Shown here piece by piece: positions 4,768 to 20,165 of a stretch of DNA of 33,115 nucleotides. This stretch comes from a virus: IMG/VR virus record IMGVR_UViG_3300010430_000301, positions 1-33,115 of that record, one strand, 5' to 3'. Each line of letters begins with the position of its first letter. Positions within the stretch are counted from its first letter, which is position 1. Made by a program: the position numbers and the translations under genes. The notes beneath the pieces are model-generated. The model worked only from the letters and a program-made list of their open reading frames with translations, did not search any database and had not been told where the DNA came from.

Positions 4768-4984
4768 GACGATCTCGACCTCGGTAGCCGCCACGATGGC
4801 GGGCGTGACGCCGGACACGTTTCGCGCGTGGGCGCACCAGGGCCTGATCCCCGACGGCATCGTCTACCGCTTGACCCCGCGCGGCAACCTGCGTGTGAAC
4901 CGCGAGAAGCTGCTGGAGTGGCTGGACGCGGCCCAAAAAAAGCCGATCTGGGACGGCGACCAGGCGCGGCTGTTTCACCGCTGA
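4748..4984 (+). CDS. MerR/excisionase-type helix-turn-helix protein
   Basis: 78 residues from ATG 4748. An ATG nine bases earlier (4739) is in frame, but GAGGGG at 4732-4737 would be only one base from it and is 10 bases from 4748, so 4748 is preferred. The core, SVAATMAGVTPDTFRAWAHQ, is the helix-turn-helix of the MerR/excisionase (HTH_17) type, followed by a wing (YRLTPRGNLRVNREKLLEWLD). The protein is at the end of the early operon, immediately before the only long non-coding stretch, so it may control late transcription in the role played by Mor/C in Mu. This role is inference from position. Confidence 0.8.
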   Translation: MGRLQGRTISTSVAATMAGVTPDTFRAWAHQGLIPDGIVYRLTPRGNLRVNREKLLEWLDAAQKKPIWDGDQARLFHR

Positions 4985-5175
4985 TCTTTCTTCGTAAATG
5001 TGCCCGGTTAAAGCGGAAAATCCGTTGGCGGGCGATCCTACTTTTTCTCGACACTGAAGCTGCACCAACCGCCTGAGGAGGCGGCCGGCCGCGGCGGAAG
5101 GTACTACCCCAACTCCCCTTCGCGCCTTGCGCCAAAGGCTAGTCGCCTCCTCTTTTCAAACGGGGTGCGGCGCGC
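4985..5175 (+). promoter_or_regulatory. Early/late intergenic region, candidate late promoter region
   Basis: This is the largest gap (191 nt) in the window and divides the early operon from the head genes. It is more AT-rich at its left end (TCTTTCTTCGTAAATG, GGAAAATCC, CTACTTTTTCTC). A perfect hairpin CCGCCT-GAGG-AGGCGG lies at 5069-5084, next to the palindromic CCGGCCGCGG stretch. I cannot name a -35/-10 pair. A phage late promoter with an activator site would be expected here, but this is inference. Confidence 0.35.
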
Positions 5176-5460
5176 ATGGCCGTAGAAACCACGCTACTGG
5201 AGAAATACCTCGGGACGGTCGTCACGTTGGTGGTGACTGCGCTGACCGCCGTGGTGGGCTGGGCCGCTCGATTGGGCGGCCGCCTGACGAAGGCGGAGGA
5301 GCGGCTGGCCGTGGCGGAAGCCGAGGCGCGCCACGCCCGCGCCGACCAGGCGGAGCTGAAGACCCTGGTGAATTCCCGCCATGACGAGCAGGCCCGCCAG
5401 ATCGAGAAGCTGGGCGAGCGCTTCGACAAGCGCTTCGACGAGCTAAGGAGTTGGCGATGA
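5176..5460 (+). CDS. DUF2730-like membrane protein with coiled coil
   Basis: 94 residues. One transmembrane segment near the N-terminus (YLGTVVTLVVTALTAVVGWA, about residues 11-30) is followed by a long charged coiled coil (AEERLAVAEAEARHARADQ, LGERFDKRFDELR). This topology and the place directly before the terminase genes match the DUF2730 family of Mu-type phages, whose function is unknown; a role in lysis has been suggested by position. A holin-like or spanin-like role is possible, but neither is shown. First gene of the late block; the site upstream is weak. ATGA overlap with the next gene. Confidence 0.7.
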   Translation: MAVETTLLEKYLGTVVTLVVTALTAVVGWAARLGGRLTKAEERLAVAEAEARHARADQAELKTLVNSRHDEQARQIEKLGERFDKRFDELRSWR

Positions 5461-5990
5461 GCAGGGCGCGGTACGACGACACGGCGCGGGAGTTCGCCTT
5501 CGGGTTCTACCTGCGCGGCTGGGATCGCGATAAGGCAGTCGTCGAAATCCAGAAAGTGTATCCGGGCTTCGCGCCGAAGACCTGGGAGGCTTGGCGCGCC
5601 AAGTATGACTGGGCGCAGCGGCGCGCGATGGCCGATGCGAAGGCTCGCGACTTCGACCGCTATGCCGGCGAGGCTTGGCGCGAGCTGCTGTTCGATCTGC
5701 GCGAAGTGCACCAGCGCATGATGGAGACGTTTCGCGCGAGCGCGGAGGCCGACCCGCAGATCGTGTATGCGCTGAATGCGACCGCCAAGCAGATCGGCGA
5801 GATCATCACCCGGCACGGCAAGGCGCAGGACCCGCAGCGGGTGGCGATGGAAGTGTTGCAGCTTGCCATGGAGAGCCTGCTGACGGAGATGCGTCTGGTG
5901 AAAGGCCTGGGCGCGCCGCTGAAGCGCAACGCCGAGGATATTGGCGGGCTGGTGCAGAAGATCGCGGAGAAGTTTGGGAGGTCGGCGTGA
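5457..5990 (+). CDS. Probable terminase small subunit
   Basis: 177 residues from the ATG that overlaps the previous stop; a TTG at 5451 is an alternative. The N-terminal third looks like an HTH used in phage small terminases: REFAFGFYLRGWDRDKAVVE, then a WEAWRAKYDW motif. The rest is helical, suitable for oligomerisation. Small terminases recognise the packaging site and present DNA to the large subunit. It lies directly upstream of a large terminase gene with one 80-residue gene between. In Mu-type phages the corresponding gene is also just before the large subunit. Family assigned by pattern and position. Confidence 0.7.
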   Translation: MSRARYDDTAREFAFGFYLRGWDRDKAVVEIQKVYPGFAPKTWEAWRAKYDWAQRRAMADAKARDFDRYAGEAWRELLFDLREVHQRMMETFRASAEADPQIVYALNATAKQIGEIITRHGKAQDPQRVAMEVLQLAMESLLTEMRLVKGLGAPLKRNAEDIGGLVQKIAEKFGRSA

Positions 5991-6229
5991 GCGGAGAGCG
6001 TCAGGGCCGGGCCGGGGACAGCCAAGGGTGGCAGTCCCCTACGGTCGAGCAGGGCGAAGACGTCACGGTGGCGGCGGAGCTGTTCTCTCTGGTGCTGACG
6101 CGGGAGGATGTCGACGATTTGCAGCTTGCGATCTCTCGTGCGCGGAGCGATGAGGATGTGGACGGTACGCCGCAAGAGCTGAGGCTGATCGAGCTGGACG
6201 CCCGGCTGGAGGATCTGCTTGGCTCGTAA
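5987..6229 (+). CDS. Small hypothetical protein with hairpin repeat in its 5' end
   Basis: 80 residues from a GTG overlapping the previous stop (GTGA). The N-terminal residues GDSQGWQSPT are encoded by the hairpin repeat at 6014-6039. The remainder is acidic and helical (AAELFSLVLTREDVDDLQLA, LRLIELDARLEDLLG). The stop overlaps the TTG start of the large terminase by 11 nt. Not recognised. It may be a small terminase accessory protein, by position only. Confidence 0.6.
   Translation: MSGERQGRAGDSQGWQSPTVEQGEDVTVAAELFSLVLTREDVDDLQLAISRARSDEDVDGTPQELRLIELDARLEDLLGS
6014..6039 (+). repeat. 26-nt hairpin repeat, copy 2
   Basis: Same 11-nt arms as copy 1 at 1893-1918, with loop AGGG instead of AGTG. 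It begins 27 nt after the start codon of its host gene and is read in a different codon phase from copy 1, so the shared sequence is not conserved protein but conserved DNA (or RNA) structure. Confidence 0.8.
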
Positions 6230-7709
6230 GCCTCAGCGCGGCGAGCGCCGGGTGACCGCCGAGGAAGTCGGCGAGCGCGCGGCGGAGCTGTTGGGCGGCG
6301 CCAGGCGCGGCGACAAGCTGACGAAGGCGCAGCGGGTGGAGCGCGGCCGGCGGGACATCCTGTGGTTCTGCCGCTACTACCTGGCCGAGAAATTCCCCAT
6401 CGAGCCGCCGGAGTTTCATCGCGAGGCGGTCGAGCTGGCGGCGGTGGAGCCGCGCTGTGCGTTTGCCGCTCCGCGCGAGCACGCGAAGTCGACCCTGATG
6501 AGCTTCGGGTTCGTGCTGCACCGGATCTGCTACGGGTTCAAGCGCCACATCGGCCTGCTGTGGGATACCGACTCGAACGCCAAGATCGCGGTGGACGACA
6601 TTCGGCAGGAGCTCGAGGAGAACGAGAAGCTCCGCGCGGACTTCGGCGACCTGATCGGCGACCGGAAGTGGACCGAGGCGGAGTTTGTGACCGCGACGGG
6701 CGCGAAGGTCTTTGGGCGCGGGCGCGGGAGCAAGCTGCGCGGCCTGAAGCATCGCGGCCTGCGTCCTGACCTGCTGGTCTGCGACGACCTGGAAGACGAG
6801 GACAGCGTGGACAGCCGCGATCAGCGCGACAAGACGAAGCGCTGGTTCGCGCGCACGGTGATCAACTCGATCGACAAGGACGACGGCCAGATCGTGGTGG
6901 TCGGGACGATCCTGCATCACGATGCACTGCTGCCGTGGCTGCTGAAGAAGCTCGGCTGGACGGCGCGGCTGTGGCGGGCGATCGAGGCGAGCGGCAAAGC
7001 GCTGTGGCCCGCGAAATGGTCGCTGGACGACCTCGAAAAGCGCAAGGCGGAGATCGGGACGCGGGCGTTCGCCCAGGAGTTCCTCAACGAGACGGCTGAC
7101 CAGGATGACCTGCTGTTCTCGCTCAACTGGTGGAAGACTTTCCAGGACGCGGATCTGAACGGGGTGCGGCTGGCGATAGCGGCGGCGGTGGATCCGGCGA
7201 TCGGGCAGAAGGCGAAGAACGACGAGACGGCCGTGGCCGTGGTGGGCGAGTCGGACGGGCGCTACTACGTGCTGAGTATCCGCATGGCGCGGCTGCGCTT
7301 TACCCGGCAGATTGAGCGCGTGCTGGATACGGCGATGGAGTGGCCGACGCTGGTGAAGTTCGGCGTGGAGTCGCAGGCGTACCAGGAAGCGCTGCGGGAG
7401 TCAGTGGTGGACGCTTCGGACAAACGGAACCTCCAGATCCCGTTTACCGAGATCACGCACCACTCGGACAAGATTCGCCGCATAGCGCGGCTGGCTCCGC
7501 TGGCGGAGAACGGCAAGATCCTGTGGCCGGGGGCTGGCTCGAAGTGCTGGTCGAAGGATGTGCCGCGGGCGCAAGAGCAGTTCGAGCAGTTGGGCCAGTC
7601 GTCGAGCCAGCATGACGACGGCGCGGACGCGATCGAGATGGCGATCGGGCTGCTGCGCGGCGTGGGCCACAGGCGCGGGCGGGTGCGGTTACTGCGGAGG
7701 GCGGCGTGA
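6219..7709 (+). CDS. Terminase large subunit
   Basis: 496 residues, the usual size. ATPase half: a Walker A-like loop APREHAKST at 84-92, and Walker B LLVCDD at 185-190 followed by LED. Nuclease half (RNase H fold): VDPA with D325, then GVESQA with E384, then HDDGADA with D466/D467/D470, which are the expected metal-binding acids. The enzyme drives DNA into the prohead and cuts the packaged DNA. In Mu-type phages packaging is headful and starts near the left phage end, leaving variable host DNA at the right. The TTG start sits within the previous gene; no ATG alternative keeps the basic N-terminus. GTGA-type overlap with the portal gene. Confidence 0.95.
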   Translation: MARKPQRGERRVTAEEVGERAAELLGGARRGDKLTKAQRVERGRRDILWFCRYYLAEKFPIEPPEFHREAVELAAVEPRCAFAAPREHAKSTLMSFGFVLHRICYGFKRHIGLLWDTDSNAKIAVDDIRQELEENEKLRADFGDLIGDRKWTEAEFVTATGAKVFGRGRGSKLRGLKHRGLRPDLLVCDDLEDEDSVDSRDQRDKTKRWFARTVINSIDKDDGQIVVVGTILHHDALLPWLLKKLGWTARLWRAIEASGKALWPAKWSLDDLEKRKAEIGTRAFAQEFLNETADQDDLLFSLNWWKTFQDADLNGVRLAIAAAVDPAIGQKAKNDETAVAVVGESDGRYYVLSIRMARLRFTRQIERVLDTAMEWPTLVKFGVESQAYQEALRESVVDASDKRNLQIPFTEITHHSDKIRRIARLAPLAENGKILWPGAGSKCWSKDVPRAQEQFEQLGQSSSQHDDGADAIEMAIGLLRGVGHRRGRVRLLRRAA

Positions 7710-9142
7710 GCAAGACGAAACGAGGAACGGGAAAGATGCTGACCACGGGGCTGGTGCGCAAGTCGCTCAACTCCGGGCCGCTGCTCGTGGGAGCTGCGCA
7801 GCTCTCGGAGCTGGCGCAGGTGCTGAAGGCCGCCGAGACGGGCGAGGCCGCGGGCTCCGACAAGCTGGTGGAACAGTTCGGCGAGCAGGTCGACGGCGTG
7901 GACTGCGCGCGGCGGCCGTTCGATATGGCGCTGTTTGCGTTCGCCCTGACCGCGAACACCTGGAACGCGCGGGCGGTGGAAGTGAAGGCCGGCGATGTGG
8001 CCGGGCGCTCGTGGGTGGTGGGCGGACCGGAGGGAACGAGCGAGAAACAGAAAGAGGATGTCGCGCAGCAGCTCCGGCGGTCGTTCGGGCGGCAGAGCTT
8101 TGGCGACGGGTTGCAGTGCATCTGGCAGGACTACGCGGGCTTGGGGAACGGCTACCTGGAGCTGATCCCGAGCAAGAAGGGCGACAAGACGGCGGCGCTG
8201 GCGCATCTGCCGGCGGCGCAGATGTACGTGCGCCTGGACGGCCTCGGGTTCGTGCAGCGCTTGGGGGTGCGGACGGCGCACTTCCGCAACGCTTGGGCCG
8301 ACCCGAAGGCCTTCGATGCGCTCGAAGCCGGCGATCCGCTGCGCGAAGCGACCAACCAGGCTATGCACTTCCCGCGCTATTCGCCGCTGAGCCCGTTCTA
8401 CGGCGTGCCCGCCGTGCTGCCGGCGTTCCCGGCGATCGCGCTGAGCGCGTTGGTGAGCGAGTTCAACCAGTCGTTCTTCAGCAACTCCGCGATCCCCGAC
8501 TACGCCGTGCTGCTGGAGGGCGATTGGGCGGAGGAGACGCAGGAGCTGATCGAGGTCTTCTTCCGAGAGCACCTGAAAGGCCAGGCGCACAAGACGCTGG
8601 TGATGGAGCAACCGACCGGCGGGAAGGTCGAGTTCAAGCGGCTGACCAGCGACGAGACGAAGGAAGGCGGGTTCCGTGAGCTGCGCAAGGACACCCGCGA
8701 CGAGATTCTGCAAGCGCACGGCGTGCCTCCGGTGCGCGTGGGCGTGGTGGAGACCGGGGCGCTGGGCGGCAACGTCGGCTCCGAGCAGCTCAAGACCTAC
8801 GTGGAGTCGATCGTACTGCCCGGCCGGGAGACGCTGGAGACGGCGCTGACCGAAGTGCTCACCCGCATGGGCCACGAGGGTCTGTGGTTCGAGTTCGAGC
8901 CGTTCGACATCGAGGACGAGCTGGCGAACGCCAAGGTGGACGCGATCTACGAAAAGATCGGCGTGAAGAGCGCGGAAGAGATCCGCGTGGAGCGCTTCCC
9001 GGAGCTGGGCGTGCTGGGCGAAGAGGGCGAGCCGGACGATGAGCCGCCGGCGGCGGAAGAGGACGGCGACCTGGGGAAGCTGGAGAAGAGCGTGGCCGGG
9101 TTGCAGACGGTGATGCAGAAGCTGCTGGAGCGTGAGCCGTGA
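7706..9142 (+). CDS. Portal protein (PBSX/HK97-like)
   Basis: 478 residues from a GTG overlapping the terminase stop. Typical portal landmarks: a YSPLSPFYGVPAVLPAF motif (about 225-240), SEFNQSFFSNSAIPDYAVLL, GQAHKTLVMEQP (about 292), and a helix-rich C-terminus ending in an acidic stretch (about 435-455) and a coiled coil (about 458-476). The dodecameric portal sits at one head vertex, is the DNA channel and the terminase docking site. The Y-G-V-P motif points to the PBSX-type branch, matching the XkdF-like protease downstream. GTGA overlap with the F-like gene. Confidence 0.92.
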   Translation: MSKTKRGTGKMLTTGLVRKSLNSGPLLVGAAQLSELAQVLKAAETGEAAGSDKLVEQFGEQVDGVDCARRPFDMALFAFALTANTWNARAVEVKAGDVAGRSWVVGGPEGTSEKQKEDVAQQLRRSFGRQSFGDGLQCIWQDYAGLGNGYLELIPSKKGDKTAALAHLPAAQMYVRLDGLGFVQRLGVRTAHFRNAWADPKAFDALEAGDPLREATNQAMHFPRYSPLSPFYGVPAVLPAFPAIALSALVSEFNQSFFSNSAIPDYAVLLEGDWAEETQELIEVFFREHLKGQAHKTLVMEQPTGGKVEFKRLTSDETKEGGFRELRKDTRDEILQAHGVPPVRVGVVETGALGGNVGSEQLKTYVESIVLPGRETLETALTEVLTRMGHEGLWFEFEPFDIEDELANAKVDAIYEKIGVKSAEEIRVERFPELGVLGEEGEPDDEPPAAEEDGDLGKLEKSVAGLQTVMQKLLEREP

Positions 9143-10143
9143 GCGCGCCCGCCGTCAACGACCAAGTGGCCGCCGCGGCCCGTCAAGTCTTCCACGAGAC
9201 GGCCGCCGTGCTGCGCAAGGCGCGCGCCGATCGCCGCTTCGACCGCGAGGCCGCCTCGGTCCCGATGGCGACCGACGTGACGAACGCCTGGCTGGAAGGC
9301 AACCGCGCGCTGGCGTTGCACCTGGAGCAACAGAACGGCTTCGAGCGCATCGCCGAGCTGGCAGCCGCCGAGAGCGGCGCGGTGGAGAAAGCCTACGGTG
9401 AAGTTGCTGCTGTGTTTTACATTCGCGCCGGGCATTTGGTCGTCGAGAAGCCGGTCGAGAAGAGCCTCGGCGACGCCGCGCAGGAGCTGATCCGGGCGCT
9501 GCTGGAAGGTTTCGACTGGTTTGGCGAGCTGCCGGCGAAGGCCAAGACGATCGTCTCGACGCACTTGCCGCAGACCTTTGACGACGCGGGCTCGTTCACC
9601 CTGGGGCAGCTCGGCTTCGCCGACGTGAGCTTCGAGCTGCGCGACCCGGTTCTGCGGCAAGCGCTGCTGGACCGCGCCGAGGCCGTGGTCTTTAGCGGGC
9701 GCGGCTACATCGAGCGGGTGATGGGGACGATCACGCGGCGCTTCTTCGATCGCGGCGAGGTTCCGTTGAACACGGAGTTCCTGGAGGAGATCGCCGAGCA
9801 GATGGACGACGCCGCGCTGCACGAAGCCCGGCGCCTGGCTCTGACGGAGACCGGCATCGCCAGCCAACGCGCCCAGCGCGAGACGATGCGGCGCAACGGC
9901 GTCCCGCGCAAGAGCTGGCAGACGTTCGAGGACGAGCAGGTGCGCGACAGCCATGAAGTGCTGCACGGGCGCACGATCGGCATCGACGAGAAGTTCGACG
10001 TGAACGGCTCGCCGGGCGACGGACCGCTGGACGAGACGCTGCCGGCGGAGGAGATTATCCACTGCCGCTGCTGGCTGACGGCGGCGTTTGACGACGACTT
10101 CGAGATTCAGCCTGAGCTGGCCTGGCGAGGTGAGGAACGATGA
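9139..10143 (+). CDS. Mu F-like minor head protein (head morphogenesis)
   Basis: 334 residues from a GTG overlapping the portal stop. The C-terminal 80 residues carry the Mu F/SPP1 gp7 domain: a motif with EDEQVRDSHEVLHGRTI (about 262-280), an acidic/glycine loop, then EEIIHCRCWLTA (about 303-314). Upstream is a helical N-terminal region of unknown fold. F-type proteins are few per virion, bind the portal, and help DNA entry or head assembly. The gene precedes the unexpected signal-peptide genes; it ends in an ATGA overlap with the first of them. Confidence 0.9.
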   Translation: MSAPAVNDQVAAAARQVFHETAAVLRKARADRRFDREAASVPMATDVTNAWLEGNRALALHLEQQNGFERIAELAAAESGAVEKAYGEVAAVFYIRAGHLVVEKPVEKSLGDAAQELIRALLEGFDWFGELPAKAKTIVSTHLPQTFDDAGSFTLGQLGFADVSFELRDPVLRQALLDRAEAVVFSGRGYIERVMGTITRRFFDRGEVPLNTEFLEEIAEQMDDAALHEARRLALTETGIASQRAQRETMRRNGVPRKSWQTFEDEQVRDSHEVLHGRTIGIDEKFDVNGSPGDGPLDETLPAEEIIHCRCWLTAAFDDDFEIQPELAWRGEER

Positions 10144-12830
10144 GAACCCCTTGTTTTGCGGACCGGACCGCCTTGGACCGCTGTATTCGCGTCCTGTGCC
10201 TACTTCTGGCGGCTGCGTCGGCGCAGGCCACGACGGTGACGGGCGATATTGCCGATGCGTTCGGGGCTCCGGTGTCGGGCGACCTGATCGTGAGCTGGCA
10301 GACGTTCGTGGCGCCGACGGGGCAGTTGGTGGCGCGCGGGACGAAGACGGTGCGGCTGGCGAGCGGCGCTTTCGCGATTGAGCTATACCCCAACGAGGGC
10401 GCCACGCCGAGCGGAACGTTCTACACGGTGCGGATCTCGGCCGGGCAGATCAACGCCGTGGAGACGTGGGTGGTGCCGGATTCGGTGACGCCGGTGGATG
10501 TGGCGACGGTGCGGGTGGTGATTCCGCCGACGCCCTCGGCGCTGATCAACCTGAGCCAGGTGCCCGCGCTGCCGGCCAGCCAGATCACGAGCGGCGTGCT
10601 GGCGGCGGCGCGGCTGGGCTCGGGCGCGGCGGACGCGACGACGTTTCTGCGGGGAGATCAGGTGTGGGCGGTTCCGCCGGGCGGCGCCTGGGGCGACCTG
10701 ACGGGCGTGCCGACGGAGTTCCCCCCGGAAGCGCATGCGGCCTCGCACCAGGACGGCGGCGCGGATGAGCTGGCGATCGCCTGGGCGCAGCTCACCGGCG
10801 TCCCGGCGGCCTTCACGCCGAGCGCGCATGCGGCCTCGCATGGCGCGGGGCAGGCTGACGCGGTGACGATCGAGGAGTCGCAGATCTCGGACCTGAACCA
10901 CTTTGACGGGGCTTACGGCTCGCTGAGCGGCGTACCGTCGACTTTCCCGCCGTCGGCGCATAGCCCCGCGGCGCATGCGGCCTCGCATCAGGATGGCGGC
11001 GCGGATGAGCTGGCGATCGCCTGGGCGCAGCTCACCGGGGTTCCGGCTGCGTTCGCTCCGAGCGCGCATGCGGCCTCGCATGGCGCGGGGCAGGCTGACG
11101 CGGTGACGATCGAGGAGTCGCAGATCTCGGACTTGGCGCACTTTGACGGGGCTTACGGCTCGCTGTCGGGCGTCCCGGCGACCTTCCCGCCGGCGGCGCA
11201 TAGCCCCGCGGCGCACGCGGCCTCGCATCAGGACGGCGGCGCGGACGAGCTGGCGCTGGACGCCTCGCAGGTGACCACCGGGCAGCTCGCCATGGCAAGG
11301 CTCGCCAGCGGAACGCCCGACGGCACGAAGTTCGTGAGGGACGACGGCACGCTCGCCGTTCCGGCCGGCGGCGGCGGTGCGAGCGAGCTGTCTGATTTGA
11401 GCGATGTGGACCCGGCCGGAGCGAGCGACGGCGACATCTTGCGCAAGAGCGGCGCGGAGTGGGTGGCCGAGGCGTTGCTGGCGGCGATTGGCGCGGACCT
11501 GACGGACGGGCGGGTGCCCTACACGGCGGGCGGCTTGCTGGCCGACAGCGCCGGCTTTGCCTTTGACGGCTCCTATGTGACTGTTCCCGCGCTCCAGATT
11601 GGGTCCAGCGCGGTGCGGTGCACGGCGAGCGCCGGCGTGTTGACCTGCACCGACCCGACGCCAACAAGTGGAGATTTCGGGCTGATCCTCAGAAGCGGCG
11701 ATGCCGAGACCGTCGACTTGTTGAGCTTGGAGGACAGCAGCGGGACGCAGCGATTTCGGGTCGACGTGGGGAACAATGAATCGACCGTCTACGCGAACAC
11801 GTATCGGAACTCCCCTGGCAACTTCTACCTGGGAGCCTATCGCGGGTTTGTGCTGGGCGACAGCTATGAGTTGACCTGGAGCACCGCATCCAACAACGCC
11901 CACTATGGCGCTACGGATATTGGGCTTGGGCGGTTGTCCGCAGGAGTGTTGCAGTGCAACGACGGCGACCGGACTTCGCCCAGCTACTGCACTGCGTTCG
12001 ACGCCGGCGGCTACCGAGTCAGTGGCGCCGCGCTGAACTTCTCGCACCTGGCCGGCAACATTGCGAACGGACAGACGCCCGAATCGGCGGTGACGCAATA
12101 CGAGGGAGCGTTGGCGATCGCCTGGGCGCAGCTCACGGGCGTGCCGTCCACCTTCCCCCCGGATGCGCACAGCCCCGCGGCCCACGCAGCCTCGCACCAG
12201 GACGGCGGATCGGATGAAGCGGCCCTTGACGCCTCGCAAATCACCACCGGGCAGCTCGCCATGGCAAGGCTCGCCAGCGGAACGCCCGACGGCAGCAAGT
12301 TCATCCGGGACGACGGCACGCTCGCCGTCCCGGCCGGCGGCGCGGTCGACTCCGTCTTCAGCCGCACGGGCGCGGTGGTCGCCGCCGCCGGCGACTACGA
12401 CGCCGACCAGGTCGATTTCACCCCGGCCGGCTCGATCTCCGCGACCGACCTCCAGGCCGCGATCGAGGAGCTCGACGCCGAGAAAGGCCCGGCGCTCGTC
12501 GCCAAGGACGTGCTCTCCGGCCCGGTGGTCTCCGGGGAGTTGGCCGCCTACGCCGACCAGCTCGTGGAGGGCTCGGCCGGGACGATCACATCCATCCGCT
12601 GTCAGACGGCCACGGGAACCTTCAAGCTCGACGTCTATGTCTCCGACGACCTGGAGGGCACGACGCAGGCCGCCGCGCACACGCAGATCACCTGCGACGA
12701 CGACGGCGAGGTCGTCACTTCCCTTAGCGGAGACGACAGCGTGGCTTCCGGCGAGTGGGTGCGCATCGTGCCCTCGGACGAGGCGGGCGGCTTTGATACG
12801 GGCTCGTTCCAGGTGGTGGCGGCGCTGTGA
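10140..12830 (+). CDS. Secreted-type tandem-repeat fibre protein
   Basis: 896 residues; the ATG overlaps the previous stop (ATGA), which supports this start. N-terminal signal peptide: basic residues, then RVLCLLLAAASAQA with an A-x-A site near residue 30. Next is a beta domain (about 31-125). Residues about 198-380 are exact-period 80-residue repeats with HAASHQDGGADEL, AIAWAQLTGVP and ISDL-HFDGAYGSLSGVP motifs, as seen in phage tail fibres. A middle region (about 410-655) is different and less repetitive, and the AHAASHQDGG / MARLASGTPDG module then returns. A typical fibre motif, VFSRTGAVVAAAGDYDADQV, is at about 738-757. After the signal there are six cysteines, compatible with disulfides. 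Virion fibres do not normally have signal peptides, so whether this is a virion part or an exported cell protein is open. Confidence 0.8.
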   Translation: MRTPCFADRTALDRCIRVLCLLLAAASAQATTVTGDIADAFGAPVSGDLIVSWQTFVAPTGQLVARGTKTVRLASGAFAIELYPNEGATPSGTFYTVRISAGQINAVETWVVPDSVTPVDVATVRVVIPPTPSALINLSQVPALPASQITSGVLAAARLGSGAADATTFLRGDQVWAVPPGGAWGDLTGVPTEFPPEAHAASHQDGGADELAIAWAQLTGVPAAFTPSAHAASHGAGQADAVTIEESQISDLNHFDGAYGSLSGVPSTFPPSAHSPAAHAASHQDGGADELAIAWAQLTGVPAAFAPSAHAASHGAGQADAVTIEESQISDLAHFDGAYGSLSGVPATFPPAAHSPAAHAASHQDGGADELALDASQVTTGQLAMARLASGTPDGTKFVRDDGTLAVPAGGGGASELSDLSDVDPAGASDGDILRKSGAEWVAEALLAAIGADLTDGRVPYTAGGLLADSAGFAFDGSYVTVPALQIGSSAVRCTASAGVLTCTDPTPTSGDFGLILRSGDAETVDLLSLEDSSGTQRFRVDVGNNESTVYANTYRNSPGNFYLGAYRGFVLGDSYELTWSTASNNAHYGATDIGLGRLSAGVLQCNDGDRTSPSYCTAFDAGGYRVSGAALNFSHLAGNIANGQTPESAVTQYEGALAIAWAQLTGVPSTFPPDAHSPAAHAASHQDGGSDEAALDASQITTGQLAMARLASGTPDGSKFIRDDGTLAVPAGGAVDSVFSRTGAVVAAAGDYDADQVDFTPAGSISATDLQAAIEELDAEKGPALVAKDVLSGPVVSGELAAYADQLVEGSAGTITSIRCQTATGTFKLDVYVSDDLEGTTQAAAHTQITCDDDGEVVTSLSGDDSVASGEWVRIVPSDEAGGFDTGSFQVVAAL
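10731..11210 (+). repeat. Two 240-nt tandem repeats in the fibre gene
   Basis: Units at 10731-10970 and 10971-11210, with a partial third from 11211. Period is exactly 240 nt (80 codons) and units begin GCGCATGCGGCCTCGCA. DNA identity is very high, even at silent positions, over stretches such as 10841-10896 against 11081-11136, so duplication is recent or kept alike by gene conversion. Confidence 0.9.
11196..11371 (+). repeat. Direct repeat A of a 176-nt module
   Basis: Matches 12165-12340 at equal length. Shared protein motifs are PAAHAASHQDGG and GQLAMARLASGTPDG. The two copies flank an unrelated segment of about 790 nt (11372-12164), as would be left by a module swap or insertion between repeats. 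Confidence 0.85.
12165..12340 (+). repeat. Direct repeat B of a 176-nt module
   Basis: Second copy of the module at 11196-11371. It is preceded by another copy of the AIAWAQLTGVP motif (around 12115-12145), so the matched block on this side is larger than 176 nt in protein terms. Confidence 0.85.
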
Positions 12831-14131
12831 TCTTGCGCCTCGCCATTCTGGCTCTGCTGGCGGCGACGGCTTCCGCCCAGCTCGCCGACTGCCCGGCGGT
12901 CGCTTCCGTCAGCGGCTTCGAGCAGGGCTTCTCGCTCGACGTGCCGGCGTCGCTGGTCGACGCCGACGTCTCCGCCGCGCAGGTCGTCCTCACCACGCGC
13001 ACGGGAACCAGCCGCGCCGCGATCGTCACAGCCCTCGACGCCCTCGCCTCCGACGCCAACCCGGAGCGGCGCGTCAAGCTGCTCGACACTGCCGGATCGG
13101 CGATCGCGTTCTGCCGCAGCTCGATCACGGTGAACAGCTCGAGCGAGTTGACGATGGGCTTCAAGCTCGACCTGGACGCAGACGACGGAGGCCGCGCCTG
13201 CCTCTACATCGACACTGATCAGAGCGAGTCGAGCGACCTGAGCGACTGCTCGACGTCCGGCGGCTACAGCGGCTGGGCCTTCTTCCACCTGGGCGGCAAC
13301 CTCACCGACCTTTCCGGCAACTCGCGCACGCTGACCGCCCCGTCCGATACGCCGTCGACAGGGACCGACGGCCCGCTCGGGCATTCGGCAGTGATCGACT
13401 CGGCCGGGTCGGAGGCCTACTACGAGGTTTCGAGCTCGGGCGGCAGCGGCGTGCTCGACTCGGCGCAGTTCACGGTGTTCTTTGCAGGCGCCGGCGACAA
13501 CGGCACGGCCAACGCCGGCAACAACAACCTGATTTGGCGCGACCCGGCCGACCAGAACACCACGCTCTCGCTGCGCTGGAACGGCGGCTCGTCGGTCTGG
13601 GGCCATATGGTGCAGCCGCGGCAGGGCGTATCGTCCGGCTGGACGGAGTTCGGGCCGATCGACGCCGCAACGGACTTCGCCGTGGTCTGCGTGCGCGAGA
13701 GCAATGTCGAGATGCGCTGCTTTCGCGCGGGCGCGGGCTTGGTGGAGACCAAGCCGCTGGTATCGACCACAGTCACTGCGTCGACGAGCAACTTCTTCAT
13801 CGGCTCCGACAACGCGGGCAACACCTGGGACGGTGAATTCCACGCCGTCGGCTTCACCACGGCGGCGGCATGGACGGCGGCTCGGGCGAAGGTGTTGAGC
13901 GAGATCGCGATCGACCAGGACGACTGGACGGTGACGGCGCTGTCGACCGCATCTCCCACTCGCCGCTTCGCGCGCCGCCGGGTAGTGTATCTGCCGGCTT
14001 GGGTGGCGGTGGCGGCGGCCTCTTGCGGGCCCGGTGAGATCCAGAGCGGCATCGCCTGCATCCCCGACGCCGGCGGCGAAGAGTCGAGCGTGGGCGCGAT
14101 GGACATCTTGACCGGAGGCCTTTTCCAGTGA
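12827..14131 (+). CDS. Secreted-type protein with lectin/LamG-like fold
   Basis: 434 residues from a GTG overlapping the previous stop. A classical signal peptide, MILRLAILALLAATASAQ, has its cleavage site after A-S-A. The middle (about 140-365) has the strand and motif pattern of a concanavalin/LamG-like jelly roll: GWAFFHLGGNLTDLSGN, then LDSAQFTVFFAGAGDN, then TSNFFIGSDNAGNTWDGEFH. Such domains bind glycans or proteins. The C-terminus has RRFARRRVVYLPAWVAVAAA, which may be a membrane segment or a strand, then CGPGEIQSGIACIP. The call is from the fold pattern only. GTGA overlap with the next gene. It may decorate the virion or act as an exported adhesin. Confidence 0.72.
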   Translation: MILRLAILALLAATASAQLADCPAVASVSGFEQGFSLDVPASLVDADVSAAQVVLTTRTGTSRAAIVTALDALASDANPERRVKLLDTAGSAIAFCRSSITVNSSSELTMGFKLDLDADDGGRACLYIDTDQSESSDLSDCSTSGGYSGWAFFHLGGNLTDLSGNSRTLTAPSDTPSTGTDGPLGHSAVIDSAGSEAYYEVSSSGGSGVLDSAQFTVFFAGAGDNGTANAGNNNLIWRDPADQNTTLSLRWNGGSSVWGHMVQPRQGVSSGWTEFGPIDAATDFAVVCVRESNVEMRCFRAGAGLVETKPLVSTTVTASTSNFFIGSDNAGNTWDGEFHAVGFTTAAAWTAARAKVLSEIAIDQDDWTVTALSTASPTRRFARRRVVYLPAWVAVAAASCGPGEIQSGIACIPDAGGEESSVGAMDILTGGLFQ

Positions 14132-17100
14132 CGTTGCGGCTGATCGTCATGCTCGGGCTGTCCGCGCTCAGCGCCGCGGCGCAGTACTGCGCGCCTGCGA
14201 TGGAGTTGGTGGAGATCTTTGGCAAGGGGCTCACGGTGTGCGGCCCGGTGACCGCCGTCCCGAGCCAAGAGCGCGAGCTGCTGTACACCATCGCGGACGG
14301 CTCGCCGGAGTTCTCGCCGATGGATCAGGCGTGCGGTACGCGGACGGTCAACGCAGCGTCGGGCTGCATCCCGTGCGGACAGCTCGAGCCCAACACCACC
14401 TACTACATCCACCCGAGCTTCGACGGTTCGACGCACGACGGCTGCCAGACGGCGACCGCGGCTTTCAGTTGCGGCGCGGTGGGCGGGTTCCCCGGCACGG
14501 CGGGCGAAGCGGCCTGCGAGGTCGAGACCGACGCGGACGGCACGAACGAGGTGATCAAGATCCGCACGCCCGACGACGGCGCCGCGCCGGAAGCGCCCGA
14601 TCCGCCTGTCTTCACACGCGCCTGGGACGCCGGTTATACCGAGTCGCCCACGTCGTCGGCGACCGTCGCAACCTCGACCGTGGACAGCGAGTCCGTTGCA
14701 ACGGACTTCCTCGCCAAGGTGGCGGCCGCCGTCGATCTGCTCAAGGCGAACCCCTCGAACACCTACCGGGTCTTTATCCCTGCGTCGACGAAGGTCCGGC
14801 CGGAGAACGACGGGACGACAGCGGCCCCCAAGAAGAACTTCGACATCCCGGCCTGCAACGGCGGCGAGACCGGCTACATCATCATCGAGAGCGAGACGCC
14901 CGACCCGGATGCAATGCCGCCCTATGGCGCGACTCCCACGCGCAACGAGGACTGGGCGGCGATCGAGTTCAACCGCAACGGCCCGCTCATGGAAGCAGAT
15001 GAGCCGCTGCTTGATTTCGCGTCGCCGGCATGCCCGGTCATCCTGCACGGCGTGACGGTCGAGCCGGCTCCGCACGCCCTCAAGGAACGCTGGCAGGAAA
15101 CCGGGACGGCCACCGTGACGCCTGGCGGCACTCACACCAGCGATAGCGTCCTGCTGACGTTTGACAGCGGCGAGCTCACCGACGTCTTCACAACCACCTA
15201 CATGAGCACGGGGATCACGGTGGCGGGCTTGAAGGGCGACCTTTGGCACAACGGCACCAACGAGAACGACGACTATACGGGCTCGACCGCTTGGACTCGC
15301 ACCGGCGACACGATCACGATTCCGAACAATGCGGCGATCGGCACCGCGGGCGCGGCCGTCATCCACAACATCATCTCGCTGCCGTTTACGTCCGCCGCCG
15401 GGGCGCTGCTGGCCACGCCGACCCATCCCTATCTCGACAGCCCGCAGACGGCGATCACCGACATCGCCTCGGGCACGGTGACCACGGCGGCGGTCCACGG
15501 CATCTCGGGCAGCGGGCGCGGCAACCCGGTGTGGGTGCAAGGGACCGAAGAGTGCGCCGGCGGCAGTCTCGACGGCTTCTACCGCAACGCCTCGACCGTC
15601 GACGAAGCGAACGACCGCGGGCGGGACACTTCGACGCTCGACCTGATCGACAACGCCAACGCCGCCATCGGCGATTGCACGCCGGTGGGCGGTACGGTGC
15701 AGATCATCGGCGTGGCGCTCGTGGTCTCCGACAGCTACCCGCACGGCATCTCATGCTTCGTCAGCTTCCCGTCGTCGACGTCGGTGCGGATCGAGCAGTG
15801 CACGGCTGATTCCGGGCTGAGCCGCTTCGTCCCGGACTTGACCGGCGAGACGGGCTTCATCAGCTACGACCCGCCGGTGATTCCGCCGCTGATCCGGCAC
15901 CGCGGCGGCCCGCTGTCGCTAGTCAACGTGAACATCGGCGCACCCCGGCCATGGCGAACCGAGGAGATCATCTTGAGCGAGGGCGCCGGGCTGTATCTGA
16001 CCGGCGTCAATGTCAAAGCTGAGATGTGGCTCCCCGTCGCGCCCAACCCGTATGCCGGCGGCGCGGTCGCCATGACGCGCAACTCCAGCTACAAGCTCAC
16101 CCACCTGGTGCGTTGCGCCGGCTGCAGCGAGCTCATCGTCGGGCCCGGCCGCTTCGAGAGCGGCGGCTGGGCGATCTTCGGCAAGGAGCAAGAAGACTGG
16201 GACGCGCCGCATGACATCCTCAAGCGGCAGCTCGTGCACGTCTTCCCCGATCACTCGATGGGCGGTCTCTCCGGCGTGCTCGAGCACATCCGGCAGCCGG
16301 GCGACGAGTACAAGAGCGGCGTGAACAGGCTGCACTGGATCGGCAACACCTTCATCGGGGCCGGCGAGCACAACGTGCCGGCGGCGGCCACGCTCTATTG
16401 CAAGGTCAACGGCGTGGGCTACGGCTACGCGACCGAGCGGTATTTCTCCTGTCGCAACATCCTGATCGAGAAGAACTTCTTCAGCGCGCCGCGGGGCTTC
16501 TCACTGGCCGATTACGAGCTGGGCAACAACCCCGCGGACGAGTACCGCTGGCTGGTGCACCGCAAGATCGCGATCAACGACAACATCTTTCGGATGCGGG
16601 CCCGCAAGTCGCCCATCGACAACGACTTCATGACCGGCGCTCTGTACACGTCGAGCGGGTTCCATACCACCATGCTCGCCTTGCGCGAGATGGTCGACGT
16701 GGACGTCTCCGGCAACCTCTTCTTACCGACCCTGGGCGATGCGAACGGCAACAACGGCGCGGCGCTGAACAGGTACCTCGAGCTGGGCGACGGCCTCGGC
16801 GGCGGCTTCCGGTTCGAGCACAACCTGGTGATCGACCCGATCATCAACAACGGCAGCTACAACCGCTTCTCGGGATCGTGGGCGGCGTCAGTGGAAGCGA
16901 AGCTGCTGTCCAACGGCGGGGCTTCGGGGCTGGTCGACATCGCGAACAACGCGGTCGCCTACTGCCAGCTCGGCACCGCGGACCCGGACTATACCGAGAC
17001 CGAGGCCGACGCCTGCACACAGGGCGCGACCTACTGGAACGAGACGGGCTACGCCACGGCGTTCTCGCGAGCCACCTGCAACGCCGTGGAGAGCTGCAAG

Positions 17101-17475
17101 ACGCGCGCCGAGATCCTGATCAACACGGGAACCCTGGAGTCGCAGGCCGCCTACAGCGCCTACGGGCCGCGCCCCAGCATCGCCGGGGTGCTCGACGCCA
17201 TGGGCGTGATCCGCGACGTGACAGCGGAGCGCAGCCTGGACGGGACCGCAGCCACGATCGCCTACCACGCACCGGATGCGGCGATGGCCTGCAAGACGAT
17301 CTACGCCTTGACCAGCGTCGACATGGACCGCGACTCCTCGGGCGTGGAGGCGGCGTGGGATTCGACCGGCACACAGGCGCGCGAAGTCGAGATCGAGGGC
17401 CTGACGCCGGGCGAGAGCTACCAGATCCGCATTCGTTGCAGATACCAGGACGGACTGGCGCGCGGGGTGATCTAA
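14128..17475 (+). CDS. Large secreted-type right-handed beta-helix protein
   Basis: 1115 residues from a GTG overlapping the previous stop. Signal peptide MTLRLIVMLGLSALSAAAQ. The first 150 residues are Cys-rich (CAPAM, TVCGP, QACG, GCIPCG, DGCQT, FSCG) with an FnIII-like strand (LEPNTTYYIHPSFDG). From about residue 620 to 945 there are repeated helix coils of the pectate-lyase/tailspike type: LTGVNVKAEM, LHWIGNTFIG, CRNILIEKNFF, IAINDNIFRM, VDVSGNLFLP, FEHNLVIDP, VDIANNAVAY. The last 90 residues look like an FnIII domain (LTPGESYQIRIRC). Such beta helices in phages often degrade or bind polysaccharides. No catalytic residues can be named. High cysteine content with a signal peptide suggests folding outside the cytoplasm. 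Confidence 0.78.
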   Translation: MTLRLIVMLGLSALSAAAQYCAPAMELVEIFGKGLTVCGPVTAVPSQERELLYTIADGSPEFSPMDQACGTRTVNAASGCIPCGQLEPNTTYYIHPSFDGSTHDGCQTATAAFSCGAVGGFPGTAGEAACEVETDADGTNEVIKIRTPDDGAAPEAPDPPVFTRAWDAGYTESPTSSATVATSTVDSESVATDFLAKVAAAVDLLKANPSNTYRVFIPASTKVRPENDGTTAAPKKNFDIPACNGGETGYIIIESETPDPDAMPPYGATPTRNEDWAAIEFNRNGPLMEADEPLLDFASPACPVILHGVTVEPAPHALKERWQETGTATVTPGGTHTSDSVLLTFDSGELTDVFTTTYMSTGITVAGLKGDLWHNGTNENDDYTGSTAWTRTGDTITIPNNAAIGTAGAAVIHNIISLPFTSAAGALLATPTHPYLDSPQTAITDIASGTVTTAAVHGISGSGRGNPVWVQGTEECAGGSLDGFYRNASTVDEANDRGRDTSTLDLIDNANAAIGDCTPVGGTVQIIGVALVVSDSYPHGISCFVSFPSSTSVRIEQCTADSGLSRFVPDLTGETGFISYDPPVIPPLIRHRGGPLSLVNVNIGAPRPWRTEEIILSEGAGLYLTGVNVKAEMWLPVAPNPYAGGAVAMTRNSSYKLTHLVRCAGCSELIVGPGRFESGGWAIFGKEQEDWDAPHDILKRQLVHVFPDHSMGGLSGVLEHIRQPGDEYKSGVNRLHWIGNTFIGAGEHNVPAAATLYCKVNGVGYGYATERYFSCRNILIEKNFFSAPRGFSLADYELGNNPADEYRWLVHRKIAINDNIFRMRARKSPIDNDFMTGALYTSSGFHTTMLALREMVDVDVSGNLFLPTLGDANGNNGAALNRYLELGDGLGGGFRFEHNLVIDPIINNGSYNRFSGSWAASVEAKLLSNGGASGLVDIANNAVAYCQLGTADPDYTETEADACTQGATYWNETGYATAFSRATCNAVESCKTRAEILINTGTLESQAAYSAYGPRPSIAGVLDAMGVIRDVTAERSLDGTAATIAYHAPDAAMACKTIYALTSVDMDRDSSGVEAAWDSTGTQAREVEIEGLTPGESYQIRIRCRYQDGLARGVI

Positions 17476-17479
17476 AGCC

Positions 17480-17830
17480 ATGAGCAAGAAGCTGATCCAT
17501 CTAGAAAAATCCGACGCCGAGCTCGGCATCATTTGGGGCTGGGTCTCCGCCGCCGACGTGGTCGACCTCGACGACGAGATCGTCCCGCAGGCTGAGCTGG
17601 TGCGGGCCTGGTACCGCTTCATGGAGGACTACTACGACGGCGCGGCCGACATCCGCGACAACCACGGCGAGCCCGCCGCGGCCGTCATCATCGAGTCCAC
17701 CCTGGAGTGGCGCGCCGGCTCGCTGCGCGCCTGGGTCGGCGTCAGGCTGCGCAGCGACGAGCTGCGCGAAGCCGCCCGCAACGGCGATATCAGCGGCTTC
17801 TCCATCGGCGGCAGCGCCACCCCGGAATAA
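17480..17830 (+). CDS. XkdF-like prohead protease
   Basis: 116 residues, shorter than full XkdF. It carries the core of the XkdF-type (Peptidase_S78_2) serine protease: GIIWGWVSAADVVDLDDEIV, a DNH with H62, a VIIES strand, and the hallmark GFSIGG with S108. The enzyme cleaves the capsid N-terminus and scaffold during prohead maturation. In PBSX-type phages the protease is a longer protein whose C-terminal part is missing here; the expected next motif appears instead at the N-terminus of the capsid protein. The ATG lies 5 nt after the previous stop. The gene is separated from the capsid gene by a secreted-type protein. Confidence 0.8.
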   Translation: MSKKLIHLEKSDAELGIIWGWVSAADVVDLDDEIVPQAELVRAWYRFMEDYYDGAADIRDNHGEPAAAVIIESTLEWRAGSLRAWVGVRLRSDELREAARNGDISGFSIGGSATPE

Positions 17831-17875
17831 AGCCCGCTAATCTGCAAAATCTGCCCGAAAATCCCCGCATATCAA

Positions 17876-17895
17876 GGGGCGCGGAACTTCGCCCC
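17876..17895 (+). terminator. GGGGCG/CGCCCC hairpin after protease gene
   Basis: Six perfect G-C pairs with an 8-nt loop (CGGAACTT), in the 149-nt gap after the protease gene. No T-run follows, so it is a weak candidate for a terminator or attenuator; it may instead be an mRNA-processing or stability hairpin. Confidence 0.3.
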
Positions 17896-17979
17896 CTGGC
17901 AACATCAGAGTCGTAACCACGGCGCGTCCCGACGGGCGCTCCACGGATTTTCAGTCAAAGCGAAGGGGCGGAGACTGAT

Positions 17980-18564
17980 GTGCGATTCAAAGGTTTGCTC
18001 GGCGCGCTGGCGCTGATTGTGTGTATGGCGGCCGCGCCGCTGGCGGCCGAGACCGTTCAGTGCGGCGACCGTGAGGTCTTCCTCACGCCGTTCAACTCGG
18101 CCAACCCGTGCGGCGACGCGGTGGTGACCACGGACGAGACGCCGCTCGAGTTCCTGCTGGTGTTCGGCCCGCCGCCCGAGAACCAGAGCGGCAAGGATTC
18201 CAGCCTGCGCAACCGGCTGGCGCGCCTCGAGTACTCCCAACGCCTGGCAACCTTCGGCGGATTGATCGATCCGCCCGCCGGGTGGGAGGCCAAGGCCGCC
18301 GCGCTGGCGAGCTGGGGCCTGGGCGAGCCGATCTTCTACGCGGTCCGCTCCGGCAAGTTCGTCGCCGAGTACGTCCGCTTCCCCAACGCCCTGTTCTTGC
18401 CCGTGCAAGCCGCGGTGAGCGCCTTCGAGCGCGCTCCGCAACTCGTCCTGCTGCAACACCAGGTGAAGGTGATCCAGGCCGGCTACTGCCTGCCCGCCAC
18501 CGCGCCGGGGCTGCCCGGTTGGATGGAGCTGCGGAACAGCCGCAACTGCGGCCAAGGGGAATAG
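17980..18564 (+). CDS. Secreted-type small protein between protease and capsid genes
   Basis: 194 residues. GTG start with AAGGGGCGGAG about 8-15 nt upstream. Signal peptide: MRFKGLLGALALIVCMAAAPLAA, cleavage near A-A-E. The mature part has four cysteines (near residues 28, 43 and two close to the C-terminus) which could form two disulfides. The rest is helical (LRNRLARLEYSQRLATFGG, ALASWGLGEPIFYAV). I do not recognise the family. It is the fourth signal-peptide gene in the late operon and splits protease from capsid. A role on the host surface, such as superinfection exclusion, is a guess; a head-surface role is another. Confidence 0.65.
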   Translation: MRFKGLLGALALIVCMAAAPLAAETVQCGDREVFLTPFNSANPCGDAVVTTDETPLEFLLVFGPPPENQSGKDSSLRNRLARLEYSQRLATFGGLIDPPAGWEAKAAALASWGLGEPIFYAVRSGKFVAEYVRFPNALFLPVQAAVSAFERAPQLVLLQHQVKVIQAGYCLPATAPGLPGWMELRNSRNCGQGE

Positions 18565-18572
18565 GCGCACCC

Positions 18573-20165
18573 ATGGCGAAAACGCTGCGCGATCTGGAAA
18601 TCAACGAGTTCTCCATCGTTCGGGGGAGCGGCGCGCAGCCCGCCAACCCCCAAGCGGTGGCGTTCGTTTACAAGACGGCCGACGGCCAAGGAGATGAGGA
18701 CGACATGCAGAAGAGCCAGGAAAAGCCCTCGGCCGACCCGGTCGAGAAGAAAGGCATCGTCGACACGGTCAAGCAAGTGCTGAAGGACTATACCTTCCGC
18801 ACGGAGATCGTCGAGACTTTCGAGGACGGCTCGGCGAGCACGGCCAAGGCCGCCGACTCCGCCCCCAAGCCGGCGGAGAAATCCGAGCCCGCCGAGCCCG
18901 CCGAGCCCACGCAGAAGGCCAAGACCGCCGACATCGGCGAGGCCGTGCAGAAGGCCGTCTCCGGCGCTGTCGGCCCGCTGGTCGAGGCCGTGGGCGCGAT
19001 CGCCAAGGGCGTGGAAGAGATGGGCGGCCGGGTCGCCGCGCTCGAAGCACAGCCCGCCGGCTCGCAGGGCGTGCACAAGTCCTCCAGCCACATCGTGGTC
19101 AAGTCCAACGCACAGTTCCCCGGCTTCACCAAGCAGCTCATGGAGTCCGCCGGCCTCACGCCGGGTCAGAAGCTGTCGAAAGCGGTGATCTCCGGCCAGG
19201 TGGCCGGCTGGACCGCCGGCATGGCGCACGATGAGGCCGACCGCTTCATCGATTACGTCGTCAACGAGAGCGTGCTGCTCAACCGCATCCGGCGCGAGCC
19301 GATGAACACCCGCACCAAGGACGTCGACAAGATCGGCCTCGGCGCGGACGTCTTCCGCCTGGGCACGCCGGGCGTGGACCCCGGCGACACCGTCTCGGTT
19401 TCCGCCCCCACGGCCGTTACGCTCACCACGCAGGAGATCGTCTCCATCGTCTCCATCGGCGACGACACGCTGGAAGACAACATCGAAGGCGACGCCTTCG
19501 TGCAGCACCTGCTGCGGATGATCGCCGACGCGGGCGCCAACGAGCTCGAGTACGCGCTCTTCTTCGGCGACACCGCCGGCTCGGCGGGCGCCCACATCAA
19601 AACGCGCTGGGACGGCGTGGACAAGCAGGCTCGCGCGGCCGGCGCACACATCGTGGACGCCACCGGCGACTCCGACCGCTACTTCCCCGATGCGCTCGCC
19701 GTGAAGGCCACCAAGCTGGTGAAGGCGCTGCCGACGAAGTACCGCCGCAACGCCGACCGCATGGCGATGATCATGCACCCGGACCTGAAGCTGGACGTCA
19801 GCGACAAGCTGGCGGCCCTGGACAGCGCGCAGGCCTACGCCAACATCGTCGGCTCCGGCGAGATGCGGCTGAAGAACCAGCCCATCGTCGAGATGCCGCT
19901 GATGCGCCGCGACGTGCTCTACACGTTCGACCCCGGCGGCGGCGACGTCAACTACCAGAACGGCACGATGGTCTACTACCTCGACCCGCGCAACGTCATC
20001 TGGGGCGTGCAGCGCGACATCCGCATCGAGCCCATGCGGCAACCCCGCAAGCGGGCCACGGACTTCGTGATCACCATGCGGGCCGACGTGAAGATCGAGA
20101 ACGCCGACGCGATCGCGATCTACGATCACCTGCTCATCAACGGCGACGTCTCGGTGGTTCCGTAG
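18573..20165 (+). CDS. Major capsid protein with XkdF-like N-terminal extension
   Basis: 530 residues. ATG with AAGGGGA about 12 nt upstream. Residues 1-40 (LEINEFSIVRGSGAQPANPQ) match the motif that follows the protease core in XkdF-type proteins. Residues about 45-170 are charged, Ala/Pro/Glu-rich and partly helical, like a scaffold (delta) domain: KQVLKDYTFRTEIVE, AVSGAVGPLVEAVGAIAKG, MGGRVAALEAQ. From about 175 the HK97-fold capsid begins (FPGFTKQLMESAGLTPGQKL), with EIVSIVSIGDDTLEDNIEGD and MIMHPDLKLDVSDKLA. The extension is probably removed by the protease at 17480. The combination of extension, scaffold and capsid in one chain is read from the sequence; the cleavage is inferred. Confidence 0.88.
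   Translation: MAKTLRDLEINEFSIVRGSGAQPANPQAVAFVYKTADGQGDEDDMQKSQEKPSADPVEKKGIVDTVKQVLKDYTFRTEIVETFEDGSASTAKAADSAPKPAEKSEPAEPAEPTQKAKTADIGEAVQKAVSGAVGPLVEAVGAIAKGVEEMGGRVAALEAQPAGSQGVHKSSSHIVVKSNAQFPGFTKQLMESAGLTPGQKLSKAVISGQVAGWTAGMAHDEADRFIDYVVNESVLLNRIRREPMNTRTKDVDKIGLGADVFRLGTPGVDPGDTVSVSAPTAVTLTTQEIVSIVSIGDDTLEDNIEGDAFVQHLLRMIADAGANELEYALFFGDTAGSAGAHIKTRWDGVDKQARAAGAHIVDATGDSDRYFPDALAVKATKLVKALPTKYRRNADRMAMIMHPDLKLDVSDKLAALDSAQAYANIVGSGEMRLKNQPIVEMPLMRRDVLYTFDPGGGDVNYQNGTMVYYLDPRNVIWGVQRDIRIEPMRQPRKRATDFVITMRADVKIENADAIAIYDHLLINGDVSVVP

Follow-up and report, generated by a model that had tools for sequence, protein, structure and literature searches.

The late operon of the virus analysed here encodes, between its head morphogenesis gene and its prohead protease gene, three large proteins with predicted Sec signal peptides (E1, E2 and E3), and a fourth, smaller one (E4) lies between the protease and the capsid genes. 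By a slight balance of probability, we regard E1–E3, and probably E4 with them, as a mobile cassette of Sec-exported surface or EPS proteins, which occupies a permissive slot of the late operon and modifies the surface of the host. The predicted export, the variability of the slot and the coupling of E1–E3 to the MuF head gene can all be read from the nucleotide sequence. The structural genes of tailed phages are commonly assumed to encode cytoplasmic proteins, and the late operon described here carries large export-tagged proteins that are kin to surface proteins common throughout one bacterial family and also found in its polysaccharide loci. If these proteins act on the cell surface, they would represent a coupled programme to build virions and remodel the envelope, as well as a route for phage–host trade in surface proteins; if they reach virions, the view of tailed-phage assembly would change.

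The virus and its relatives

The window, that is, the whole stretch of DNA under study, is a 33,115-bp IMG/VR virus record with a GC content of 68%. Its gene content points to a transposable siphophage, with a DNA transposition protein, a terminase, a portal, a MuF protein and an XkdF-type protease, and also an HK97-type capsid, a head-tail adaptor, tail genes and a J-like tail-tip protein. The features relevant to this work are the following.

7706..9142, + strand: portal protein (Pfam Phage_portal, 8e-23; PHROG 12)
9139..10143, + strand: MuF/F-like head morphogenesis gene, left border of the slot (Pfam Phage_Mu_F, 3.9e-11)
10140..12830, + strand: E1, predicted exported fibre-type protein of 896 aa; signal peptide at residues 1–28, MRTPCFADRTALDRCIRVLCLLLAAASA followed by Q
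12827..14131, + strand: E2, predicted exported protein of 434 aa, no family; signal peptide MILRLAILALLAATASA followed by Q, 8 mature Cys
14128..17475, + strand: E3, predicted exported protein of 1115 aa, no family; signal peptide MTLRLIVMLGLSALSAAA followed by Q, 24 mature Cys
17480..17830, + strand: XkdF-type prohead protease, right border of the E1–E3 slot (Pfam Peptidase_S78_2, 3.2e-11)
17980..18564, + strand: E4, predicted exported protein of 194 aa; signal peptide MRFKGLLGALALIVCMAAAPLAA followed by E, 4 mature Cys
18573..20165, + strand: major capsid protein (PHROG 1623, 7e-58)

A nucleotide search of GenBank phages with the window gave no match, and relatives came from protein comparisons. 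In the terminase alignment, the TerL of a contig binned in a MAG of the Bryobacteraceae, phylum Acidobacteriota (L012), was 54% identical to that of the window, and 14 genes of this contig matched the window in the same order. A portal search across 237 genomes of the family yielded a second Bryobacteraceae relative, the prophage G146, placed inside a 4.86-Mb contig, and the window portal is 47–49% identical to the portals of these two. Scanning IMG/VR with an alignment of three portals provided seven further contigs (L283–L289) besides L002, which is described below. The members have in common the order TnpB-TerL-portal-MuF-(slot)-protease-capsid-adaptor-tail-J, to which the window conforms, and core genes that are about 40–54% identical. 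This order and similarity place the window virus in a clade of transposable siphophages of Bryobacteraceae, comprising two genomes and seven other IMG/VR contigs; draws of genomes at the levels of phylum and class gave no clade member beyond the two Bryobacteraceae genomes. In a concatenated tree the window, L289 and L288 fall together and L012 elsewhere, an arrangement compatible with either one gain or two for the cassettes of the window and of L289. The D3112/JBD-type phages, which display the transposable siphophage genome plan, have a related TerL, about 29–30% identical to that of the window.

A further IMG/VR contig of the same virus, L002, is identical to the window from position 3515 to 10986, where it ends in an internal repeat of E1. 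Because this identity extends across the MuF–E1 junction, the junction is no assembly artefact and, together with the start-stop overlaps of E1–E3 described below, it ruled out a chimeric assembly. The repeat in question is a tandem one of about 256 bp (92% identical), located at 10710–11226 of the window, and since L002 ends at it, the number of copies assembled may not be reliable.

Four predicted exported proteins

The initial annotation of this DNA had assigned signal peptides to genes starting at 10140, 12827, 14128 and 17980. Open reading frames exist at the four positions, and a home-made score that considers the basic n-region, the hydrophobic core and the −3/−1 rule (small residues) placed their predicted Sec signal peptides at ranks 1–4 when all 146 ORFs of 80 aa or longer on either strand were scored, with E4 the best in the window and E1 the third. 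As a baseline, 3 of the 369 ORFs of at least 190 aa found downstream of TerL in 81 other TerL-anchored loci, by a crude ORF picker that misses some genes, scored as high. The first three starts had been considered fixed by ATGA or GTGA overlaps, and this is what was seen. The ATG of E1 overlaps the MuF stop (ATGA) and lies behind GAGGTGAGGAACG, with a Shine-Dalgarno, and for these reasons a wrong start was rejected for E1; E2 and E3 begin in GTGA overlaps with the preceding gene, so that start-stop coupling links E1–E3 to one another and to the MuF gene. E4 is uncoupled, separated by 150 nt from the protease gene upstream and by 9 nt from the capsid gene downstream.

The paired cysteines noted at the outset are also present, inasmuch as mature E1, E2, E3 and E4 contain 6, 8, 24 and 4 of them, always an even number. 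Over the four proteins, cysteine accounts for 46 of 2639 residues (1.74%), versus 29 of 5289 (0.55%) in the other virion-operon proteins that were checked (odds ratio 3.2, p = 8e-7). The frames are open over up to 1115 codons, with a GC3 typical of the operon. For positions 9000–19000, a scan limited to sigma-70-type sites found nothing promoter-like on the coding strand, and terminator-like sites were not clearly above shuffles (6 vs 4.2 ± 2.3); by these two measures, the cassette lacks the own promoter and terminator that characterize a classical moron.

E1 is made of the signal peptide, an exported N-terminal domain of about 100 aa (N-domain) and phage-fibre repeats, the latter with weak matches to PHROG 31472, 5231, 14 and 9574 and to Fn3-II_PB4. 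It consequently has the repeats of a tail fibre, but neither the absence of an export signal nor the position beside tail-tip genes that would be expected of one, as its signal peptide is strong and its gene lies between MuF and the protease. When used as a query, E1 matched 194 of the 237 Bryobacteraceae genomes, mostly through residues 14–140, which correspond to the signal peptide and the N-domain. This domain, for which Pfam, NCBIfam and PDB gave no match, defines an uncharacterised exported domain family: residues 1–130 of E1 can be aligned with nine diverse members, with G47, G76, L82, P84, Y95, E108, W110, V112 and S115 invariant. In a single-sequence scan with the N-domain, matches in L010 and L011 were discarded as low-complexity repeats, the sole other match being L002.

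The export postulated by the initial annotation found support in the persistence of the signal peptide across E1 homologues. A strict automatic test recognized one before the N-domain in 29 of 38 unique homologues, compared with 65 of 760 random windows, and the other nine appear signal peptide-like by eye, with proline, glutamine or a charge inside the core. The arrangement of a Sec signal peptide directly before the conserved domain is found in E1 and in the first slot gene of the sister phage L289, and it is conserved, with A-x-A sites, in homologues outside phages too. N-domain homologues occur in unrelated prophage tail modules (L207, L208, L219 and L216) and in the IMG/VR phage L221, as well as in the form of stand-alone chromosomal genes (L209–L215, L217, L218 and L220); the prophage protein at L216:7899–9728 combines the signal peptide, the E1 N-domain and Pfam phage tail repeats. 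The search for relatives devoid of a signal peptide, which would speak against export, had an outcome largely favourable to export. Proteins with the N-domain carry one, as just described, whereas fibres of G146, G888 and L281, with similar repeats and a different N-terminus, do not.

As for the other three proteins, searches of Pfam, PHROGs, NCBIfam and PDB returned nothing for E2 and, for E3, a sub-threshold Fn3 match at residues 1029–1109. Single-protein scans of viral contigs gave no relative of E2 or E3, nor did genome contigs for E3, and tblastn against phages produced no match for E2, E3 or E4. Across the 237 genomes, E4 obtained marginal matches only (E 3e-5 over 79 aa), and the weak matches of a concatenated E2+E3 query were rejected as artefacts at the junction, caused by the artificial glycine linker. 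AlphaFold, run on single sequences without an alignment, reached a pLDDT of 33 for E2 and 36 for E4, values too low for the models to be of any use. Consequently, of the fibre-repeat protein, lectin fold and beta helix originally proposed, the repeats of E1 bear out the first, and the other two could not be confirmed.

A variable slot and related loci on host chromosomes

The region between MuF and the protease varies among sister phages. It is empty, with the protease soon after MuF, in G146, L283, L284 (near-identical to L283), L285, L286 and L287; L288 has there one 161-aa gene without a signal peptide, and L012 a single exported gene, with the signal peptide MKTLLLLISLSAALAAQ followed by TT and a dockerin-like C-terminus. 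The product of the latter, at L012:13745–14350 in the head operon, matches Pfam Dockerin_1 just above the cut-off. The slot of L289 contains three exported genes. Gene 1 encodes a short E1 N-domain protein (34% identity, E = 7e-8), gene 2 a protein that is fibre-like and weakly matches a phage tail repeat, and gene 3 a large protein. In gene 3 the frame breaks around 4300–4490, between ORFs 3265–4491 and 4302–5741, reflecting a contig error or a damaged gene. The suggestion that the module is shared by phages of one host group agrees with the presence of this three-gene exported cassette at that position in a sister phage, and with the E1 N-domain found in several unrelated Bryobacteraceae phages.

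E4 was found in the window only. None of the checked relatives has it, and their capsid and protease genes touch or overlap, which makes E4 an insertion separate from that of the E1–E3 slot. Both the slot content and E4 thus share one trait with morons, being absent from close relatives and inserted between conserved phage genes. A separate observation concerns positions 17480–18600, where the XkdF-type protease, at 116 aa, is short and the start of the capsid ORF, EFSIVRGSGAQPANPQAVAFVYK, resembles the XkdF C-terminal motif. The two genes abut or overlap in all clade members, as would result from the splitting of a protease and the fusion of its tail to the capsid or scaffold, and in the window E4 is located within this split.

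The position directly behind J is the usual place of a tail fibre. In L012/L176 and L262, fibres with a signal peptide and with PHROG tail-fibre similarity stand directly downstream of J, and in G146 and G888 the fibre downstream of J has no signal peptide. L176 (reverse complement, 14518–14811) encodes behind J a 97-aa protein that begins much like the signal-peptide-free fibre of G146 (30192–31241); the signal-peptide fibres follow at once, suggesting that the fibre region has been rearranged there.

The genomes were also searched with the repeat region of E1 only, thereby avoiding selection for the N-terminus. Among the ORFs recovered whose start can be read, a signal peptide is present in nearly all (L281 is an exception, the signal peptide of L277 was recognized by eye, and L280 is cut). 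Whereas L262, L264 and L281 are clearly phage, many others adjoin polysaccharide genes, namely Wzx, Wzy/O-antigen ligase, GT2, UDP-glucose dehydrogenase and acyltransferase genes. Among representative neighbours, Pfam identified Polysacc_synt flippases (L259, L260), a Wzy_C O-antigen ligase (L266), an acyltransferase (L259), UDP-glucose dehydrogenases (L274, L277) and GT2 enzymes (L265, L268); other neighbours gave no PHROG structural match. In the host loci, the fibre protein is typically followed by more signal-peptide proteins, the row often ending in one of 700–1700 aa, as illustrated by L274 (578, 339 and 1027 aa).

The cassette of L289 is related to these loci. Its gene 2 is 78% identical to the host fibre of L267 over 49 aa. 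Its gene 3 shares 43% identity over 169 aa (E = 2e-30) with the gene that immediately follows this fibre, and also matches L268 and L265. Homology to the partner genes of host operons was consequently found for L289 gene 3, but not for E2 and E3, for which phmmer, BLAST and the family-wide genome search gave nothing convincing; since no sequence homology was detected, the likeness of E2 and E3 to the host partners is one of position, export signal and size only. Because related exported cassettes are also part of the normal chromosomal gene complement of the host family, several of them in polysaccharide loci, the module is not phage-specific. The ancestry that the E1 N-domain and L289 genes 2 and 3 share with non-prophage host proteins indicates that cassette proteins are common to the Bryobacteraceae and their phages.

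Host surface, virion or lysogen

The occurrence of related cassettes both in the slot of a sister phage and in surface-polysaccharide loci of the host implies that the phage probably remodels the exterior of its host while building virions. We infer late expression, periplasmic folding with disulfides and an action on the host surface or polysaccharide. Briefly, the cassette proteins would be made alongside the virion proteins from the late transcript, would undergo Sec export and then fold in the periplasm with formation of disulfides, and would be released to the surface or matrix. There, the fibre, large and accessory proteins would bind or rearrange the extracellular polysaccharide of the host, as their homologues in host loci presumably do. 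A possible benefit would be that progeny do not adsorb again to the dying cell or to cell debris; the exclusion of competitors and the loosening of the matrix at lysis are other candidates. Three aspects speak against this action on the host surface: E2 and E3 have no sequence homology to the host partners, the coupling to a head gene is odd for a pure host-surface factor, and repeats of the fibre type are usually a mark of tail fibres in virions, with the signal-peptide fibres of L262 and L176 placed right after J.

An alternative is that E1–E3 are receptor-binding or decoration proteins of the virion itself, exported, furnished with disulfides in the periplasm and attached when lysis mixes the compartments, which we consider doubtful, although a real possibility. 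The phage-fibre repeats of E1, the translational coupling to the MuF gene and the prophage protein of L216 in which signal peptide, N-domain and tail repeats are joined are all in line with it, and the signal-peptide fibres of L012/L176 and L262, because they stand behind J and resemble PHROG tail fibres, make incorporation into virions possible. However, the slot is empty in six sister phages, indicating that its content is non-essential for virion assembly, related exported proteins are found in host loci otherwise free of phage genes, and the fibre behind J in G146 and G888 has no signal peptide. An extracytoplasmic branch of assembly, in which fibre-type proteins would be Sec-exported, matured by disulfide formation outside the cytoplasm and mounted after lysis on virions (or would form a coat shared by virions and host matrix), and which would be built from parts shared with the polysaccharide-locus proteins of the hosts, seems to us unlikely.

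The genes might also serve mainly the lysogen, in adhesion, biofilm or EPS, with the late-operon slot merely tolerating inserts. The proteins are of the same kind as those encoded by host surface genes, and there is a precedent in lambda lom and bor, moron or lysogenic-conversion genes that are expressed in lysogens (PMC7067206). This explanation is nonetheless decidedly unlikely in our estimation, given that the sigma-70-type scan revealed no promoter-like site of their own for these genes and that E1–E3, being coupled to MuF, should follow the expression of the lytic operon. Finally, the signal peptides are predicted, and by a home-made score, so that the proteins could be ordinary cytoplasmic tail or head fibres with an uncleaved hydrophobic N-terminus, or else decayed cargo devoid of function. 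We judge this very unlikely, in view of the conserved pairing of signal peptide and N-domain outside phages, with A-x-A sites, the presence of four such proteins in one operon, and frames that stay open for up to 1115 codons with operon-typical GC3.

With respect to known systems, the nearest functional parallel to the host-surface cassette that we favour is that of PblA and PblB, also fibre-type phage proteins from a structural operon that end on the host surface. These two are not known to have Sec signal peptides, unlike the window proteins, each with its own predicted one and with related cassettes in non-phage host loci. In the Streptococcus mitis phage SM1, PblA and PblB are tail structural components and also host-surface adhesins, released by means of the phage holin and lysin (PMC7600539). 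Lambda Lom and Bor are similar in being phage-encoded envelope proteins, but they are small, single outer-membrane proteins, whereas the window has three large, coupled proteins for which no promoter of their own is visible. Lom is encoded among the late tail genes. A third comparison is offered by the target proteins of phage DGRs, equally phage fibre or lectin-type binding proteins, whose lack of signal peptides has been taken as support for a phage origin as opposed to surface-displayed bacterial ones (PMC6199706); the window proteins break that rule. Literature searches among open-access papers gave nothing relevant on acidobacterial phages with exported fibres. Phage-encoded surface factors are in themselves a known kind, although the cassette may be something less familiar.

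The operons of host polysaccharide loci (L259, L260, L265–L269, L274, L277 and L279) resemble the cassette in consisting of a row of signal-peptide proteins, the fibre-repeat protein first and large exported proteins next. They differ in being chromosomal, linked to polysaccharide loci and uncharacterised, and in having no detectable E2 or E3 homologues. In four of these polysaccharide loci (L266, L274, L277 and L279), where the phage-fibre-like protein leads rows of large exported proteins, the largest proteins tested gave no Pfam families, and these loci would constitute an uncharacterised host surface system in their own right.
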